Made by a program: the position numbers and the translations under genes. Shown piece by piece: positions 42,235 to 58,689 of a DNA stretch of 64,000 nt. The DNA is taken from assembly GCF_010681825.2 (NCBI RefSeq), contig NZ_CP066776.1, positions 1,612,001 through 1,676,000 of the forward strand, read 5' to 3'. How positions within the stretch are numbered: position 1 is the stretch's first letter; each line of letters begins with the position of its first letter. A model generated the notes under the pieces. It saw nothing but the letters and a program-made list of their open reading frames with translations, had not been told where the DNA came from and made no database searches. This stretch comes from Sulfuriroseicoccus oceanibius (GTDB lineage Bacteria > Verrucomicrobiota > Verrucomicrobiia > Verrucomicrobiales > SLCJ01).

Positions 42235-43335
42235 ATGAATTCATCTATTTGGGATATTGCCCACCCGCAGTTGCGTGACCTGGTGGCTTACGAGCCAGGC
42301 AAGCCGATCGACGACGTGGCCCGCGACATGGGCTTGGAGCCGGACCAGATCGTCAAGCTGGCGTCGAACGAGAACCCATTGGGTCCGTCGCCGAAGGCGA
42401 TCGAGGCGATGGCCGACGCGGTCAAGGGAGTGAACATCTACCCGGACGGAGCGGCGTACCATTTGCGCAATGCCATTGCCGACAAGTTCGACCTCAAGCG
42501 AGAGAATGTCGTGCTGGGGTGTGGCTCGAATGAGATCATCGAGCTGCTTGGGCACGGCTTCCTCAAGCCGGGCACCAATATCGTGACCGCCGACCATGCG
42601 TTTGTCGTCTACAAGCTGATGGCGACGCTTTTTGGTGCGGAGACCAAAGAGATTGCCGACCCTGGGTTCGTGCACGATCTCGATGCGATGGCCGAGGCGA
42701 TCGACGAAAACACGCGTGAGGTTTTCATCGCTAACCCGAACAACCCAACCGGTACGCTCGTGGATCAGGAGGCGATTGACCGCTTCATGGAGAAGGTGCC
42801 GGATCACGTGATTGTGGTCTTTGACGAGGCGTACTATGAGTTCCTCGACACTCCGCCGGACACGCTCAAGTACGTGCGTGAAGGGCGCAACGTGGTGGTG
42901 CTGCGTACGTTCTCCAAGATCCAGGGGCTCGCAGGAACGCGCACCGGTTATGGGTTGATGAAGCCTGAACTTGCCGAGGTGCTGCAGAAGTGCCGTCAGC
43001 CATTCAACACGAACATGGTGGGCCAGGCCGGAGCATTGGCGGGCTTGCTCGACGAAGAGCACCAGCAGAAGACCAAGGCGCTGACCGACGAAGGGCGTGA
43101 GTTCTTCCAGCAGAGCTTCGAGGAAATGGGGCTGGAGTACGTGCCGAGCTTTGCCAACTTCGTGTTGGTGAAGGTGGGCGACGGCGATAAGCTTTTTGCC
43201 GAGATGATGAAGAAGGGCGTGATCGTGCGTGCGATGCGCGGATACAAACTGCCTGAATGGGTGCGCATTTCGATTGGCACGATGGATGAGAACCGTCGCT
43301 GCATCGAGGTGATGAAAGAGTTGCTCGGCAAATAG
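42235..43335 (+). CDS. hisC: Histidinol-phosphate aminotransferase
   Basis: PLP enzyme of the aspartate aminotransferase fold; catalyses the seventh step of histidine synthesis and often also aromatic transamination. Motifs are LASNENPLGPSPKA, IANPNNPTG, VFDEAYYEF and TFSKIQGLAGTRTGYG, in which the Lys binds PLP. 366 residues fits. ATG 42235 is preceded by TTTGTT without a clear ribosome site. In this neighbourhood (argF, hisC, SDR) it may instead serve as an aromatic aminotransferase with tyrA, which cannot be decided here. Confidence 0.93.
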   Translation: MNSSIWDIAHPQLRDLVAYEPGKPIDDVARDMGLEPDQIVKLASNENPLGPSPKAIEAMADAVKGVNIYPDGAAYHLRNAIADKFDLKRENVVLGCGSNEIIELLGHGFLKPGTNIVTADHAFVVYKLMATLFGAETKEIADPGFVHDLDAMAEAIDENTREVFIANPNNPTGTLVDQEAIDRFMEKVPDHVIVVFDEAYYEFLDTPPDTLKYVREGRNVVVLRTFSKIQGLAGTRTGYGLMKPELAEVLQKCRQPFNTNMVGQAGALAGLLDEEHQQKTKALTDEGREFFQQSFEEMGLEYVPSFANFVLVKVGDGDKLFAEMMKKGVIVRAMRGYKLPEWVRISIGTMDENRRCIEVMKELLGK

Positions 43336-48795: not shown

Positions 48796-48963
48796 ATGGG
48801 CTGGCGTGCTGGCCCGCATCCGAGGCAGTACGGATGACCGTATCTCATGACCCGTCCGCGTGGTTAGCTCGCGACAATGGCGCGTGAACCCACATTTCGT
48901 GAGGACCACCATGGTCGATCGGCTGGCGGGAAACGGAGCCTGAAAACTGTACCTCGATACCCA

Positions 48964-50538
48964 ATGAAACGAACAAAATTGTTCTCAGCCAAACGGATGG
49001 CGCTTGCATGGTTGTGCGGCGTCGCTTCGGCGGTGAGCCTCTACGCCGCTGACAAACCCAATATTCTAGTCATCTGGGGCGATGACGTCGGTCAGTCCAA
49101 CATCAGTGCCTACACCCGCGGGCTGATGGGGTACACTACGCCGAATATCGATCGGATCGCCAACGAGGGCATGTTGTTCACCGATTATTACGGCGAGCAA
49201 AGTTGTACTGCCGGGCGCTCGTCCTTCATCATGGGGCAGAGTGTGTTCAGGACGGGACTGTCCAAGGTCGGGCTGCCGGGAGCCAAGGAGGGGATGATGG
49301 TCGAGGATCCTACAATCGCCGGGTTGCTCAAGGATCAAGGGTACGCCACGGGGCAATTTGGAAAAAACCACCTTGGGGATCGGGACGAGCATTTGCCCAC
49401 CAACCACGGGTTTGATGAGTTTTTTGGCAATCTGTACCACTTGAACGCGGAAGAAGAGCCAGAGAACTACGACTATCCGAAGGACCCTGAGTTTCATAAA
49501 AAGTTCGGTCCTCGTGGTGTGATCAAGTCCACGGCCGGAGGTGAGATTGAGGATACCGGGCCGCTGACCAAAAAGCGCATGGAAACGGTGGATGATGAGA
49601 CGGTGGCCGCTGCCATCGATTTTATCCGGCGTCAGGAGAAGGCTGGGAAGCCTTGGTTTGTTTGGTGGAGCGGAACCCGGATGCACTTCCGCACCCATGT
49701 GAGTGAGGAGAAGATGGCGCAGATCAAGAAGCAGTACCCGAATGCGGATGAGTACACCTGCGGCATGCTGGAGCACGATATGCATATCGGTCAGTTTCTC
49801 GACCTTCTGGACGAATTGGGGATCGCCGATAACACGATTGTGCACTATTCCACAGACAACGGTCCGCACTACAATACGTGGCCGGATGCGGCGTCCACTC
49901 CGTTCCGAGGAGAGAAGAACACGAACTGGGAGGGCGGATGGCGCGTTCCTTGTGCTGTGCGCTGGCCGGGGACGATCAAGCCGGGATCCGTGAGCAATGG
50001 AATCGTCCACCACATGGACTGGCTGCCTACATTCCTGGCGGCTGCAGGGAAGGCGGATATCAAGGAAGACCTGCTTGATGGTTATTCCAGTGAGGCTCTG
50101 GGGCGTGACTACAAAGTCCACCTCGATGGTTACGATCTTACCGAGCATTTGAAAGAGCCTCAGGCAAAAGCTAGCCCGCGTAAGGAGGTCTTTTATTTCT
50201 CTGATGATGGGGATCTGACCGCACTGCGTTACTTGGATTGGAAGGTGATCTTTATGGAGCAGAAAACCACGGGAACCTTCCGCGTTTGGATGGAGCCGTT
50301 TGTTCCGCTGCGTGTGCCATTGATCTTCAACCTGCGTCGTGACCCGTACGAGCGCGCTGAAGAGACCTCGAACACGTACTACGATTGGATGATCGATCGT
50401 GCGTTCCTGCTGGTGCCGGCGCAGGCATTTGTGGGTGGGTTCCTTGAGACCTTCAAAGAGTTTCCTCCGCGTCAGGAGGCGGCGTCTTTCTCACTCGATA
50501 AAGTGATGAGGAAACTGAGTGAGGGCCCAAGTAGTTAG
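48964..50538 (+). CDS. Arylsulfatase (sulfatase family S1)
   Basis: 524 residues with a signal peptide (1-28, ending YAAD). The metal and catalytic motif is DKPNILVIWGDDVGQSN at the N-terminus, with Cys81 in SCTAGRSSF as the formylglycine precursor (CxAxR type). Further motifs are TGQFGKNHLGDRDEHLPTNHGFDEF (GQFGKNHLG and HGFDEFFG) and STDNGPHYNTWPD. A formylglycine-generating enzyme would be needed. It carries a long open frame ahead of the ATG, which lacks site support. Verrucomicrobia typically carry many sulfatases for degrading sulfated polysaccharides, so the substrate may be algal. Confidence 0.92.
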   Translation: MKRTKLFSAKRMALAWLCGVASAVSLYAADKPNILVIWGDDVGQSNISAYTRGLMGYTTPNIDRIANEGMLFTDYYGEQSCTAGRSSFIMGQSVFRTGLSKVGLPGAKEGMMVEDPTIAGLLKDQGYATGQFGKNHLGDRDEHLPTNHGFDEFFGNLYHLNAEEEPENYDYPKDPEFHKKFGPRGVIKSTAGGEIEDTGPLTKKRMETVDDETVAAAIDFIRRQEKAGKPWFVWWSGTRMHFRTHVSEEKMAQIKKQYPNADEYTCGMLEHDMHIGQFLDLLDELGIADNTIVHYSTDNGPHYNTWPDAASTPFRGEKNTNWEGGWRVPCAVRWPGTIKPGSVSNGIVHHMDWLPTFLAAAGKADIKEDLLDGYSSEALGRDYKVHLDGYDLTEHLKEPQAKASPRKEVFYFSDDGDLTALRYLDWKVIFMEQKTTGTFRVWMEPFVPLRVPLIFNLRRDPYERAEETSNTYYDWMIDRAFLLVPAQAFVGGFLETFKEFPPRQEAASFSLDKVMRKLSEGPSS

Positions 50539-51307: not shown

Positions 51308-51742
51308 CTAATCCTGCGAGGGTTTGCGGCGCAGGTCTTTTTTGCGCGAGTGGCGGGTTTTCGCCTCTCTGTGGCGTTTTTTTGCGGCGGCGCCGGGTTT
51401 CCGGTGTTTGGCGCGTTGGGCGGCGCGGCGGCGTTTCTTTGCCAGCGAGTGTTGTTGGTTGAGCTCTTCGATCTTTTCGAGAAGGCGTTCGCGGGCGAGG
51501 AGTCGGTTGCGGCTGCGTGAGCGCGAATCCTGGCATCGGATGTCGATGTTGAGTCCGATGTGCCGGAGCTGGACGCAGGAGTGGGTTTTGTTGATCTTCT
51601 GGCCACCGGAGCCCTCTCCCAGAGTGAAGCGTTCGATCAGGTCTTCTTCCTCGACTCCCAAGTCGGCCAGTCTGCGGTTGATTTCACTCAGCGGGTCGCA
51701 TGGGATTTGATCGGATTCGTGGTTCTGGCTCGGCTCTGTCAT
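51308..51742 (-). CDS. Peptide chain release factor-like protein (ArfB/YaeJ type)
   Basis: 144 residues with a GGQ loop (46-48) in GEGSGGQKINKT, the peptidyl-tRNA hydrolysis motif of class I release factors. It has no codon-recognition domains, and a long basic C-terminal tail (KKRRRAAQRAK and so on) that in ArfB enters the mRNA channel. It should rescue stalled ribosomes. The tail is rich in Arg/Lys and the gene is compact. The ATG at 51742 is the only good start. Confidence 0.88.
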   Translation of the reverse strand: MTEPSQNHESDQIPCDPLSEINRRLADLGVEEEDLIERFTLGEGSGGQKINKTHSCVQLRHIGLNIDIRCQDSRSRSRNRLLARERLLEKIEELNQQHSLAKKRRRAAQRAKHRKPGAAAKKRHREAKTRHSRKKDLRRKPSQD

Positions 51743-52212: not shown

Positions 52213-52390
52213 AAGCATCTGGTTCGGGACCGGCGTAGTAGGCACAACCGTGGACTAAGGGCGGAGATGGCACGATTCTATGGTGGCGCGATCGTTGGGA
52301 TCGCGTTATCGATTCGGGGTCATGATCGTACTCGACACCCGCGAACTTACCTCCTGCACGCAAATTGATTGGTCCCGTTGGCGTCCTACG

Positions 52391-53698
52391 ATGCACGCCA
52401 CGTTGTTGTTTGTAATGATTGACGGGCGGATCTTGTTGATGCGCAAGAAGCGGGGGATTGGCGCGGGCAAGGTCAATGGTCCGGGAGGTAAGATTGATCC
52501 GGGCGAGAATGCGGCGTCCTGCGCGGTGCGCGAGGTGCGTGAGGAGTTGATGATTGAGGTTGAGCCTGAGGCGTTGCTCAAGCGGGGCGAGTTGTTTTTC
52601 CAGTTTCGCGACGGGCTCTCGATCCACTGCACGGTATTCTCGTGCGATGCGTATTCGGGGGAACCGACCGAGACCGACGAGGCGGTGCCGATGTGGTGTG
52701 ATGTGGATGCGGTTCCGTATGACGAGATGTGGGCGGACGACGCGCGTTGGCTACCACGCGTCATTGAGGGGGATAACTTCTGCGGGCATTTCATTTTTGA
52801 TGAGGATGAGATGATCGACGAGGACGTGGTTTTTGGAGGGGAGGCCGAGCGACGCTGGGTGGATGGCGACGGTGTGGGCGTGCCGCGCTTTGCCAATGCG
52901 CTGAGTTACGGCGTGGGGAGTACCAGTTTCCGTCCATGCATTGACCTCCACTCAGGGCAGGTGAAGCAGATCGTTGGGGGCTCGTTGACGGATGATGGCG
53001 AGGGGTTGAAGACAAACTTTGTGAGTGAGCGTGATGCGGCGTGGTTTGCTGCCAAGTACAAGCAGGACGCGCTGCGAGGCGGGCACGTGATCAAGTTGGG
53101 GCCGGGCAATGACGAAGCCGCGCGCTCGGCATTGGCCGCGTATCCGGGCGGATTGCAGATCGGCGGTGGCATCACTGCGGAGAATGCGGCCGAGTGGATT
53201 GCTGCAGGGGCGTCCCACGTGATTGTCACGTCCTATCTTTTCGATTCGGAGGGCAAGTTCCGTCAGGACAGGCTCGATGCGCTGGTAGCAGCTGTCGGGC
53301 GCGAGCGCCTGGTGATCGACCTCAGTTGCAGGCGTCAATCGGATGGAGGCTGGGTGGTTGCGATGAACCGCTGGCAGACATTGACCGACATGACGCTGAA
53401 TCGGGAATCGCTCGAGCGGCTTGCCGAGTTCTGCGATGAATTCTTGATCCACGCGGCCGATGTCGAAGGGATGTGCGGAGGAATCGATGAAGAGTTGGTT
53501 CAGGCGCTGGGTGAATGGTCGCCGATCCCGGTGACGTATGCCGGCGGTGCTCGATCGATTGACGATTTGGAGTTGGTCAACCGGTTGAGCAACGGGCACG
53601 TCGATCTGACGATTGGTAGTGCGTTGGATTTGTTTGGCGGTGACTTGATCCGCTATGACGACTGTGTGGCCTTCAACCGCGAGGGGGAAAAGCGGTGA
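52391..53698 (+). CDS. Nudix (MTH1-like) and HisA fusion protein
   Basis: 435 residues in two domains. Residues 1-150 are a Nudix hydrolase like MTH1: RKKRGIGAGKVNGPGG, with the Nudix box G33-x5-E39-x7-R47-E48-V-x-E51-E52, and MWADDARWLP. Residues 179-435 are a HisA (ProFAR isomerase) of the eukaryotic HIS6 type: FRPCIDLHSGQVKQIVGG, GGHVIKLGPGNDEAA, VIDLSCR and YAGGARSIDDL. The catalytic acids should be Asp185 and Asp310. The frame is unbroken between them. Possible independent starts for HisA exist (GTG about 52860). An in-frame ATG at 52322 is an alternative start. The next gene overlaps by 4 bases. Confidence 0.85.
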   Translation: MHATLLFVMIDGRILLMRKKRGIGAGKVNGPGGKIDPGENAASCAVREVREELMIEVEPEALLKRGELFFQFRDGLSIHCTVFSCDAYSGEPTETDEAVPMWCDVDAVPYDEMWADDARWLPRVIEGDNFCGHFIFDEDEMIDEDVVFGGEAERRWVDGDGVGVPRFANALSYGVGSTSFRPCIDLHSGQVKQIVGGSLTDDGEGLKTNFVSERDAAWFAAKYKQDALRGGHVIKLGPGNDEAARSALAAYPGGLQIGGGITAENAAEWIAAGASHVIVTSYLFDSEGKFRQDRLDALVAAVGRERLVIDLSCRRQSDGGWVVAMNRWQTLTDMTLNRESLERLAEFCDEFLIHAADVEGMCGGIDEELVQALGEWSPIPVTYAGGARSIDDLELVNRLSNGHVDLTIGSALDLFGGDLIRYDDCVAFNREGEKR

Positions 53699-54573
53699 GC
53701 CCGGTATTAGCGGATTCGGGACATTGGTTCGGCGCGTTGGGGGCGGCGACGATATTCACGCTGGCAGCGGTGCCCTTGGTGTTGGGCGCGCGCAAGCGGC
53801 GACGACGCACGCGATGGATGGAGGAGGGGCTGCCGTCAGAGGACCAGCAATTGTTGGCGGAGCGGGTTTGGTTTTACCATTTGGCGCCGGATGAGGTGCG
53901 CCGTGACTTTGACCGTGTGCTACGGGTGTTTCTCGAGGAGAAGCGATTTGAGGCGTGCGGAGGGCTGGACGAGGTCACGCGCGAGATGCAGTTGGTGATC
54001 GGTGCACAGGCTTGTTTGTTGGTGTTTGGGCGTGCCCGTTCAATGGGCGCCAAAGCGCTGGCGCCGTATGACAAGCTGGCGTCGATCTTGATCTATCCGA
54101 GTACCTTTGTCGCACGGCGGGAAGGTGTGTGGGATGAGGATGATCAGGGTGATGTGTTGCTAGGTGAGTCGTGGTCGACGGGATCGTTGATCCTGGCGTG
54201 GGACTCGGTGGAGCGAGGATTGGAGAACCGTCACGACGGACACAACGTGGTGATGCATGAGTTTGCGCATCAGCTGGACCAATCGGATGTGGCTGATGGT
54301 GTGCCTGAGCTGTCTAGCAGTGAGCAGGCCAGGCGCTGGGCGGCTGCATTTGCGCCGGCCTACAGGCGCTTGCTGGATGCCGTTGAGGACGGCCGCCGGT
54401 CTGTGCTGGATGAGTATGGTGCGACCAACCCTGCGGAGTTTTTCGCGGTCGCTACCGAGACGTTTTTTGAGAAACCCCGCCAACTGCAGGAAGACGAGCC
54501 GGAGCTCTACGAGCAACTCAAGCGGTACTATCATCTCGATCCACTTGGCTGGCCGCGGGTGCGTGAGCAATGA
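53695..54573 (+). CDS. mtfA: Zinc-dependent peptidase MtfA
   Basis: 292 residues with the HExxH motif HEFAH at 188-192 and the third-ligand Glu in NPAEFFAVATETFFEKP. The opening helical region contains LSxE and DEVRRDFDRVLRVFLEEK. In E. coli the protein controls the glucose PTS regulator Mlc; here no Mlc is in view. A hydrophobic N-terminal stretch (12-32) could anchor it. The GTG start overlaps the Nudix-HisA stop by 4 bases (GTGA), so translation is coupled. Confidence 0.9.
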   Translation: MSPVLADSGHWFGALGAATIFTLAAVPLVLGARKRRRRTRWMEEGLPSEDQQLLAERVWFYHLAPDEVRRDFDRVLRVFLEEKRFEACGGLDEVTREMQLVIGAQACLLVFGRARSMGAKALAPYDKLASILIYPSTFVARREGVWDEDDQGDVLLGESWSTGSLILAWDSVERGLENRHDGHNVVMHEFAHQLDQSDVADGVPELSSSEQARRWAAAFAPAYRRLLDAVEDGRRSVLDEYGATNPAEFFAVATETFFEKPRQLQEDEPELYEQLKRYYHLDPLGWPRVREQ

Positions 54574-54948: not shown

Positions 54949-55614
54949 TTAAACCGCTTCTTCGTTGAGGAAGAGTACCTCGCGGGCGACGTTGATGCTT
55001 TGTTTGACCACGTTGCGCATGCAGCGGGCGACGACGATCAGGTCGATGACTGTTTGCAGGTCTTCCGCGCTCGAGCCCTCGACGAGTTCGTCAGCGAGGT
55101 TGTCGATGGTTTGGTTGATTTGTTCGCGCAGAGGTTTGCTGGCTTCGATCGACTCGACGGCGAGCTCAGGGTTGCGCTCCGTGTAGGAGATGAGGCAGTC
55201 CTCGAAGTGCTTGCGGGTGGAGACGTAGAGGTGCTCCATGCCGTCGGCGAGGCGGTGTTTCGGGGTGGTGTTGAGTACCAGGGCCCGGCGGGCGATGGTC
55301 ACGCTCTGGTCGCCGATGCGCTCGAAAGCACTGCACAAGTGCATGCTGGCGATGGTGGTGCGCATGTCGATGGCGACGGGGCGGAAGCGCAGCTGCAACT
55401 CGATCAGCGCACGGTTGATCTCATTTTCCAGCCGGTCGATCTGGTCATCCGCCTCGATGGTCGCTTCGCAGAGTGCGTTGTCTCGGGTCAGGAACCCTTT
55501 GGCCGCATCGGCTAGAGCCGCACGACTGCGGCTGGCCATCGTGAGCAGGTCTTGATTGACCCGCTTGAAGGCTCCTTCGAGTTCCGAAGAAATGTGAGGT
55601 GTTTGGTTGATCAT
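54949..55614 (-). CDS. phoU: PhoU-family phosphate regulator
   Basis: 221 residues with two PhoU-type three-helix repeats, including EADDQIDRLENEINRALIELQLRFRPVAIDMRTTIASMHLCSAFERIGDQSVTIA (key motifs ENEIN, RPVAIDMR and FERIGDQ). Acidic ExxxD motifs bind metals. PhoU modulates the Pst transporter and PhoR. It lies after pstB on the same strand, the usual order. Confidence 0.93.
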   Translation of the reverse strand: MINQTPHISSELEGAFKRVNQDLLTMASRSRAALADAAKGFLTRDNALCEATIEADDQIDRLENEINRALIELQLRFRPVAIDMRTTIASMHLCSAFERIGDQSVTIARRALVLNTTPKHRLADGMEHLYVSTRKHFEDCLISYTERNPELAVESIEASKPLREQINQTIDNLADELVEGSSAEDLQTVIDLIVVARCMRNVVKQSINVAREVLFLNEEAV

Positions 55615-55725
55615 CTGGAGGAGGTACCGGGTTGCGGTAGAGGGTGGGGCAGTTTATCCGCCAAGCGGGAAATCGGCGAGCCGCGAATGTGCGACGGGAT
55701 GGATCCGTGACGAGTACTTGGAAAC

Positions 55726-56520
55726 TTAGCCGAAGCGGCCGGTGATGTAGTCTTCGGTTTGTTTCTTCGATGGGTTGCCGAAGATCTTCTGGGTACGGTC
55801 GAACTCGATCAGCTCACCGAGGTAGAAGAATGCGGTGTTGTTTGAGACACGGCTGGCCTGGGACATCGAGTGGGTGACGATGACGATGGTGAATTCGGAG
55901 GCGAGTTCGGTGATCAGTTCCTCCACTTTGGCGGTGGCGATGGGGTCGAGAGCCGAGCATGGCTCGTCCATCAGGATGATCTTGGGCTGCACGGCGATGG
56001 CGCGTGCGATGCACAGGCGCTGCTGCTGGCCGCCGGAGAGACCGAGGGCGCTGGAGTGGAGGCGGTCTTTGACTTCCTCCCAGAGGGCGGCGCTGCGGAG
56101 GGATCGTTCCACGGCTTCGTCGAGGCGCTTTTTGTTCTTCTCACCGGCAATCCGCAGGCCGTAGCTGACGTTGTCGTAGATCGACTTCGGGAACGGATTG
56201 TACTTCTGGAATACCATGCCCACATGCTTGCGCAGCTGAATGGCATCGACCTTGGGAGCGTTGATATCCTGGCCCAGAATACGGATTTCGCCTGTGGTGA
56301 TCTTCGAGCTGTCGACCAGATCGTTCATGCGGTTGAGGCAGCGAAGGAGGGTGGATTTGCCGCAACCCGACGGGCCAATGAACGCGGTGACTTCTTGCGC
56401 CGGGATATCCAGCGAGATGTTCTTGAGCGTATTGGTTTTGCCGTTGTCGTAGCTGAACGAGAGGTCGTCGATCTCGATGAGAGCCGACTTTTCGGTGGTC
56501 GATTCAGGTGTGGTGGACAT
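55726..56520 (-). CDS. pstB: Phosphate ABC transporter ATP-binding protein PstB
   Basis: 264 residues. Walker A is GPSGCGKST at 49-57, the signature is [14 protein letters not shown], Walker B ends at [12 protein letters not shown], and the D- and H-loops follow. The family-specific [12 protein letters not shown] segment is [13 protein letters not shown]. It lies between the phoU and pstA genes. Confidence 0.97.
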
Positions 56521-56562
56521 GAGAATGGGGACGGTTGAAAGTGATCGGGAAAGGGGTGGATC

Positions 56563-58689
56563 TTACCAGGAAAGCTTCTTGCGGGCGCGGATGCGGAGCC
56601 AGACGGAAAGCCCGGCGAACAACATCACGACGAGAAGGAAGAGGAGCGTGGAGCCGTACTGCATTGGCTCGGTGAACTCGGACTGCGGGATGCGGCCTGC
56701 GACAGTGTAGATGTGATAAGGCAGGGCTTGAACCGACTGGAAGAAGAATGATTCGATGCCGCTGAGCAAGCCGTCGTTACCGATTCCTTCCCAAGGAAGT
56801 TCCGAGCGGGCTGCCACGGCGGCGGTGAACATGATCGGTGCGGTTTCACCGGCGACCCGAGTGATGCCCAGCACCGAGGCGGTCAGGATGCCAGGGAACG
56901 CATAGGGCAGAACTGCGGTGCGGATGGCTTGCCATTTGGAGGCACCCAGTGCGAGTGACGCTTCGCGGAAGCCCATCGGCACGGCTCTGAGTGACTCCTC
57001 ACAGGAAGTAATGATCACAGGTAGCACCATGATGGCCAGGGTGAGACCACCGGCGAGGATGGATGTGCCCCAGCCCTCGAACGAGAGGTAGGTGCGGCCG
57101 GTGTAGAATTGCTTCGCGCCGGCGACAGTGGCTGCGGTGGTGGCTTCGCTGGTGCTGGTGCCTTTTTCGAAGATCATGATCGAATCCCGCTCGGCCTTGC
57201 GCAGCGATGGTTGCTCAATGGCTGGCCACAATGGGATGCGGAACGCGTCTTTTGAGTTTGGAGTCGACGTCAGGCGCGGAGCCAGCAACACGAACAATCC
57301 AAGGCCGAACAGACCAAAGATAATGGAAGGGACGCCTGCCAGGTTGAGCATCGCCAGACGCACGCTTTTAAGGTAGACGCCGTCTTTCGAATATTCGTTG
57401 AGGAAGACTGCTGCCGAGATGCCGACGAAGAGAGCGACGGTAATGCAGAGTGTGACCAGAAGCGCGGTTCCCACGAGTGGTCCGAGCACGCCGCCGCCGG
57501 AATACGAGTAGGTGTCTTCGTTGGCGATCTTGAGCGAGTCGTTGAGTTCCGCCATTGCCACGCGTTCGCGGTTAGGCATGGAGAGGTCGACGGGTTCCGG
57601 GATGTCGAAGGTGACGAGATCGCGGGTGGTGGTGCGGGTTCCCTTTGAGGTGAGTGGGATGTGTGGCTGGTCGGCCTGGAAGCCGGCGAGCTCGTTTTGT
57701 GGCAGCACGAGCGTGACCGGCTTGTCGAAGTCGGCGACGATCACACCGTCCGGCGAGCTTTGGCGGAGGCCGATGTTCGCTCCTGGGTTGGTGGCCTTGA
57801 TGGTGAATGCGAGATCAAATGGCAACTGGTAGCGGCCGGCCGAGACGATGACCTTGCGGCGGGTCTCTGTGACTTCGCTCGCGGTCGATGATGCCACCGG
57901 CAGCGGTTGGTCGGTATCCGTGACTTGTTCGAAGAGGTCGTCGCTAAAGCGGAGGGATTGCTCCGATGGGATCTCGACTTCGAATGGGGTCGACTCCGGA
58001 TCATCTTCGGCAGGAATGCCCTGGACGATGAAGATCAACTCGGTGGGGTCGAGCGCGGTGAGTGTGGATTTGGTGAGAGTGGTGCGGCCGGCTGGAACGA
58101 CGATGTCGTGTACGGTGTTTTCGAGTACCAGTGGTTCGTTGGCCTTGAGCTCAAGGGACGATTCCACACCAGCACCGATCTGCTGCCAGGTGGCTTCGTC
58201 AAAGACGAGGGTGGTATCGTTCTCGAAGCCAATTGCCAGCGTGGTGTCCTTGCTGCGTTGGTTGAAATTGACGTACAAGTCGTCGTTGTGTTCTTCAAGC
58301 GTGCTGAGCCAGCCGTCCATGATCAAATGGGAGCCTGCAGCCAGTTCGAAAACTTCGAGAGTCGATGTCTCGGTGGATTCGGTGAGGTTTGCCGGCTCGA
58401 AGTCCGGATTGTAAATGCCGAGTACCTCGAAGTCCTCCTTTTGCATGCGGATGCCCTTGGACTGGTCGAACTCGCTCACGACGAGTGTTTCCGGGCTGCG
58501 GGTCAGGAAGTGGCTTCCGTATTGCCACAGGACCGGCGTGCCTTGGTAGATGATCTTGCCGAAGATGAACGCGGCGCAAAGAAGGATGAAGTAGGTTGCT
58601 GCGATGAACAAACCGCGCACAGTGAGTTCTTTGGAGCGGCCTTGCTTCTTGCGGCCTACAAACGGGACATTGGATGGTGCCTGGCTCAT
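56563..58689 (-). CDS. pstA: Phosphate ABC transporter permease PstA, enlarged
   Basis: 708 residues against about 290 for classical PstA. TM1 is at about 27-48. A periplasmic insertion of about 350 residues follows, predicted to be beta-rich, with repeated VxVP, FExEIPSEQ and LVLPQNEL segments. The permease core begins near residue 398 ([19 protein letters not shown]) and has the EAA loop [23 protein letters not shown] second insertion of about 60 residues lies in the core between two helices (after [11 protein letters not shown]). The family motifs are kept. Confidence 0.92.

Follow-up and report, generated by a model that had tools for sequence, protein, structure and literature searches.

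What a nucleotide-cleaving Nudix domain does at the head of an enzyme of histidine biosynthesis is the question raised by one gene of the verrucomicrobial bacterium Sulfuriroseicoccus oceanibius. The gene lies in a stretch of 64,000 nucleotides of contig NZ_CP066776.1 (positions 1,612,001 to 1,676,000, forward strand), here called the window, and belongs to a genome available as one contig of 3.5 Mb that is 95.5% complete. An earlier note on this DNA, made from its letters alone, described a single unbroken frame in which an MTH1-like Nudix domain is joined to HisA. This description was borne out, as positions 52391-53698 form an open frame throughout (435 aa) and both domains are matched by profile.

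Structure of the fused gene

The start proposed for this frame, 52391, is probably not the true one. The frame is also unbroken from 52322 to 53698 (458 aa), and a comparison of N-termini revealed that the free-standing Nudix relatives and the window protein share an 'IDW..W.P..ATL' stretch located N-terminal of the Met at 52391 (in the window protein, TQIDWSRWRPTMHATLL). Since this stretch is conserved in the relatives, the true start of the fused gene (52322..53698, + strand) is probably ATG 52322, which is preceded by TCGGGGTC and has an SD-like GGGG upstream. The 4-base overlap with the next gene was confirmed at 53695-53698; this mtfA-like gene (53695..54573, +), the product of which is a Peptidase_M90 (MtfA) protein (Pfam, 255 bits), is probably co-transcribed with the fused gene.

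Other genes in the surroundings include one divergent to the fused gene (51308-51742, -), which encodes a protein made of a lone RF-1 domain and a basic tail, similar to ribosome rescue proteins of the RF-H / ArfB type. A sulfatase-like protein (48877-50538, +; PNILVIWGDD, CTAGRSSF) and, just downstream, a phosphate-uptake cluster of PhoU-, PstB- and Pst permease-like genes (54949-58689, -) were judged by eye.

The Nudix domain (52391..52834, +) matches the Pfam NUDIX family at residues 9-123 of the 435-aa numbering, with 58 bits against a cut-off of 21. Its best solved relatives in the PDB are MTH1 proteins (E 1e-30), and a Foldseek search with the AlphaFold model of the domain (mean pLDDT 87; its tail is disordered) placed MTH1 structures at the top, with TM-scores of 0.87-0.94 (about 0.93 by target length), so that both sequence and structure comparisons uphold its MTH1-like character. 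O6-methyl-dGMP and N6-methyl-dAMP are among the ligands of the best-matching MTH1 structures. The Nudix box (GKIDPGE...REVREELMI, 52487..52555, +) had been called full, which holds for the catalytic glutamates, all of them present, but not for the xGU part, in which M takes the place of G at a position that is variable in the family.

In human MTH1, residues N33, W117, D119, D120, F72 and T8 bind the base and sugar, and F27 and M81 contact the 8-oxo group (PMC4801406). An alignment of 43 Nudix rows showed that T8, N33, F72, W117, D119, D120, W123 and F139 are kept in every row. Conversely, F27 and M81 are not kept, both being I in the window protein and variable in the family, and therefore 8-oxo-dGTP may not be the substrate; judging from these positions, the preferred one may be another modified purine nucleotide. 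The window Nudix shares with MTH1 / NUDT1 the fold, the catalytic glutamates and N33, W117, D119, D120, T8, F72 and W123, but it is 34-40% identical to it, has lost the G of the Nudix box, carries replacements at W32 and F35 as well as at F27 and M81, and is fused to HisA. In the tree, a long branch separates the bacterial Nudix clade from zebrafish MTH1.

The HisA domain (52922..53695, +) follows a Nudix tail and linker (52835..52921, +). Residues 178-430 match TIGR02129 (hisA_euk) end to end (model positions 1-255; 400 bits against a cut-off of 229) and the nearest structures are yeast HIS6 (E 5e-90) and plant HISN3, in full agreement with the proposal of a complete HisA of the yeast/plant HIS6 type. 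The catalytic Asp pair of HisA sits in the strand-1 motif and in the VIDLSC motif, and when aligned with yeast HIS6 both motifs (CIDLH in strand 1, and VIDLSC) are intact. What distinguishes this protein from other members of the hisA_euk class is the N-terminal Nudix extension, as HisA stands alone in other Verrucomicrobiales. The fused copy is the only hisA_euk of the genome.

Relatives and origin of the fusion

In nearly all of the 94 genomes of the order there are two separate genes, one for hisA_euk (57-77% identical) and one for an MTH1-like Nudix (about 47-63%). In G001, the sole other member of the genus examined, the two are neighbors, the Nudix stop being followed by 13 nt and by the hisA ATG in a different frame. 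The stretch between points shared by both genomes measures 49 nt in G001 but 24 nt in the window; this net loss of 25 nt removes the Nudix stop and the hisA ATG and so yields the fused frame. The genes flanking the pair differ between the window and G001, evidencing that the pair stayed together through rearrangement. In trees both window halves pair with their G001 counterparts, with good support for Nudix and moderate support for HisA.

No second genome with a Nudix-HisA fusion was found among the 94 genomes of the order or in a search of genome contigs. At about 40 other Nudix loci, inspected with the E. coli his proteins as queries and in many cases over flanks of only 1.5 kb, no his gene was detected beside Nudix except hisA in G001; adjacency in one genus is roughly what would be expected by chance in about a hundred genomes inspected. 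The earlier note had counted relatives in which the two genes are always separate as evidence against the fusion. They are indeed separate in all the others, but adjacent in G001, and the fusion still stands: it is real, probably recent and possibly species-specific. In the open-access literature, with few subscription journals covered, no description of a Nudix-HisA fusion or of a Nudix HisE was found.

Both halves had also been regarded as more eukaryotic than bacterial. This is correct by profile, but the form is an ordinary one in the phylum. An origin by transfer from eukaryotes was rejected, as hisA_euk is standard in the phylum, which makes such a transfer unnecessary, and the yeast and plant rows stand on long branches. 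Each half is ordinary for its lineage. A verrucomicrobial-type hisA_euk (68% identical) was also observed in a MAG contig labeled 'Paceibacterota', probably a mis-binned contig.

Two alternative readings concern the junction itself. That the frame is an artifact of sequencing or assembly, made from two overlapping genes, is barely credible: only one genome shows the fusion, and with a single wrong base upstream of 52913 HisA would still be left a GTG to start from, but the Nudix tail, which can be aligned with the separate G001 Nudix through to its end, remains in frame with it to about 52900, leaving ~12 bases free of long homopolymers. A one-base error could mimic the fusion only within about 52901-52912, given the extent of this alignment and the fact that HisA would have no start codon if the error lay at 52913 or beyond. 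It is also quite improbable that most HisA is translated on its own from an internal in-frame GTG (52913..52915, +), in which case the cell would contain the fused chain plus free HisA, or mostly free HisA. This GTG precedes the conserved FRPCIDLH by five codons and is close to the starts of relatives, but only a weak GAG lies at Shine-Dalgarno distance from it and the upstream frame is intact.

HisE in the genome and in the phylum

In step 2 of histidine synthesis HisE cleaves PR-ATP to PR-AMP and pyrophosphate; the Nudix domain might be its non-orthologous replacement, the fusion to HisA (step 4) then reflecting membership in the pathway. We consider this reading doubtful, and the evidence on both sides is as follows. 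In the source genome, scored with the TIGR03188 and PF01503 profiles, there is no TIGR03188 match and the sole PF01503 match is a canonical MazG; the fused protein has neither domain. HisI, HisF, HisC and HisA are all present over their respective cut-offs. Thus, of the two genes that the earlier note had suggested to look for elsewhere in the genome, hisI is present but HisE was not found by profile. In the window, hisC (42244-43317) is the only other his gene found, as had been stated. The bond chemistry of HisE (or HisIE), NTP to NMP plus pyrophosphate, is the same as that predicted for Nudix; however, HisE has an all-alpha fold of the MazG superfamily, unrelated to Nudix, and the window domain could match it as a functional analogue only.

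The distribution of both genes favors a replacement to some extent. Taking E <= 1e-35 as the threshold for Nudix presence (the best match of the next genome was 1e-20), HisE was recognized in 70 and Nudix in 86 of 289 Verrucomicrobiota genomes, and none has both (expected 20.8). Within the order HisE occurs in only 4 of the 94 relatives, all of them in a genus read as Akkermansia. Among 59 genomes of this genus there are 37 with HisE, nine with Nudix and again none with both; in the 23 that carry hisA_euk, Nudix is present in 9/15 without HisE and in 0/8 with HisE (p 0.007, uncorrected for relatedness). In addition, three genomes of the genus that lack HisI and hisA_euk lack Nudix too. In the four HisE-plus loci seen in this genus (L115-L118) HisIE adjoins hisF, hisG or a standard bacterial-type hisA, the latter found in two of them, a gene set that differs from the rest of the genus, in which his genes are scattered. 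The HisE-plus members look as though they had exchanged the scattered pathway for this set, with Nudix gone in all of them.

Other observations argue against the replacement. Counted by family, the overlap between HisE and Nudix is 1 versus 3.9 expected (p = 0.04), which makes the exclusivity weak. Of 271 HisI-positive Verrucomicrobiota genomes, 203 have no recognized HisE and 118 have neither HisE nor Nudix, including one of the genus read as Akkermansia that is available as a single contig (G085) and encodes HisI and HisA. If these 118 are prototrophic, another enzyme, either unrecognized or of the MazG type, must perform step 2; one study rates gut Verrucomicrobia as able to make every amino acid except threonine, with the HisE step counted as optional (PMC9026213). 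Beyond the Verrucomicrobiota, members of this Nudix clade are found together with HisE in Acidobacteriota, Pseudomonadota and Myxococcota, and no alignment column among the 43 Nudix rows separates HisE-plus from HisE-minus hosts. The base-edge residues that would meet the purine N1 are invariant and identical in both kinds of hosts, and PR-ATP would present the phosphoribosyl that it carries on N1 to the Asp pair of MTH1 (deduced from PMC4801406), which argues against PR-ATP as the substrate. The suggestion that Nudix could replace HisE thus gains some ground in that the searches of the genome gave no HisE and that HisE never occurs with Nudix in the phylum, but the pocket is MTH1-like and neither gene is present in many of the relatives.

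Alternatively, the MazG protein may hydrolyze PR-ATP and so serve the HisE step, a possibility that we entertain tentatively and that is compatible with the explanation preferred below. A precedent for a replaced HisE is provided by Desulfovibrio, in which the MazG-family protein DVU1186 substitutes for HisE (PMC5764234), although DVU1186 has a MazG fold rather than a Nudix fold and is not fused to HisA. The MazG of the source genome scores 303 bits to TIGR00444, and MazG-like matches occur in most HisE-minus relatives. On the other hand, the source protein is a canonical two-domain MazG, a type also present in HisE-plus genomes, and no his-gene neighbor of it was seen. The surroundings of hisI were inspected for a HisE candidate in 20 genomes, in which the his genes are scattered; a MazG located 4 kb from hisI-hisG in one of the loci (L197) was rejected as a lead as sugar-transporter-like genes lie between them.

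A proposed bifunctional protein from two neighboring genes

The explanation that we prefer, to which we assign about an even chance, is that of a bifunctional protein arising from joined neighboring genes and combining HisA and nucleotide-pyrophosphohydrolase activities, with no functional link between them required. The single frame, the two domain types, the lack of a second hisA_euk and the adjacent but separate pair in the sister species are seen directly; both enzyme activities, the Nudix substrate and the one-chain product are predictions. According to this explanation, a small local deletion would have joined an MTH1-type Nudix gene to the adjacent hisA, with loss of the Nudix stop and the hisA start. 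The C-terminal barrel would be the ProFAR isomerase of the cell, and the N-terminal domain would cleave a modified purine nucleoside triphosphate to the monophosphate and pyrophosphate, as MTH1 does, an activity that need not be tied to the histidine pathway. As the Nudix clade also occurs in HisE-containing bacteria, its basic role is probably not that of HisE. Against this explanation counts the fact that house-cleaning alone accounts neither for the non-overlap of HisE and Nudix in the phylum nor for the lack of a recognized HisE.

Fusions often reveal functional links, and the link in this case points to the HisE gap in the Verrucomicrobiota. It is unlikely, yet worth stating, that the phosphoribosyl-ATP diphosphatase missing in a large part of the phylum is this MTH1-like Nudix, which would then represent a second fold for step 2, revealed by the fusion. 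That a recognized HisE is lacking so widely in the Verrucomicrobiota is a more interesting finding than the fusion itself.
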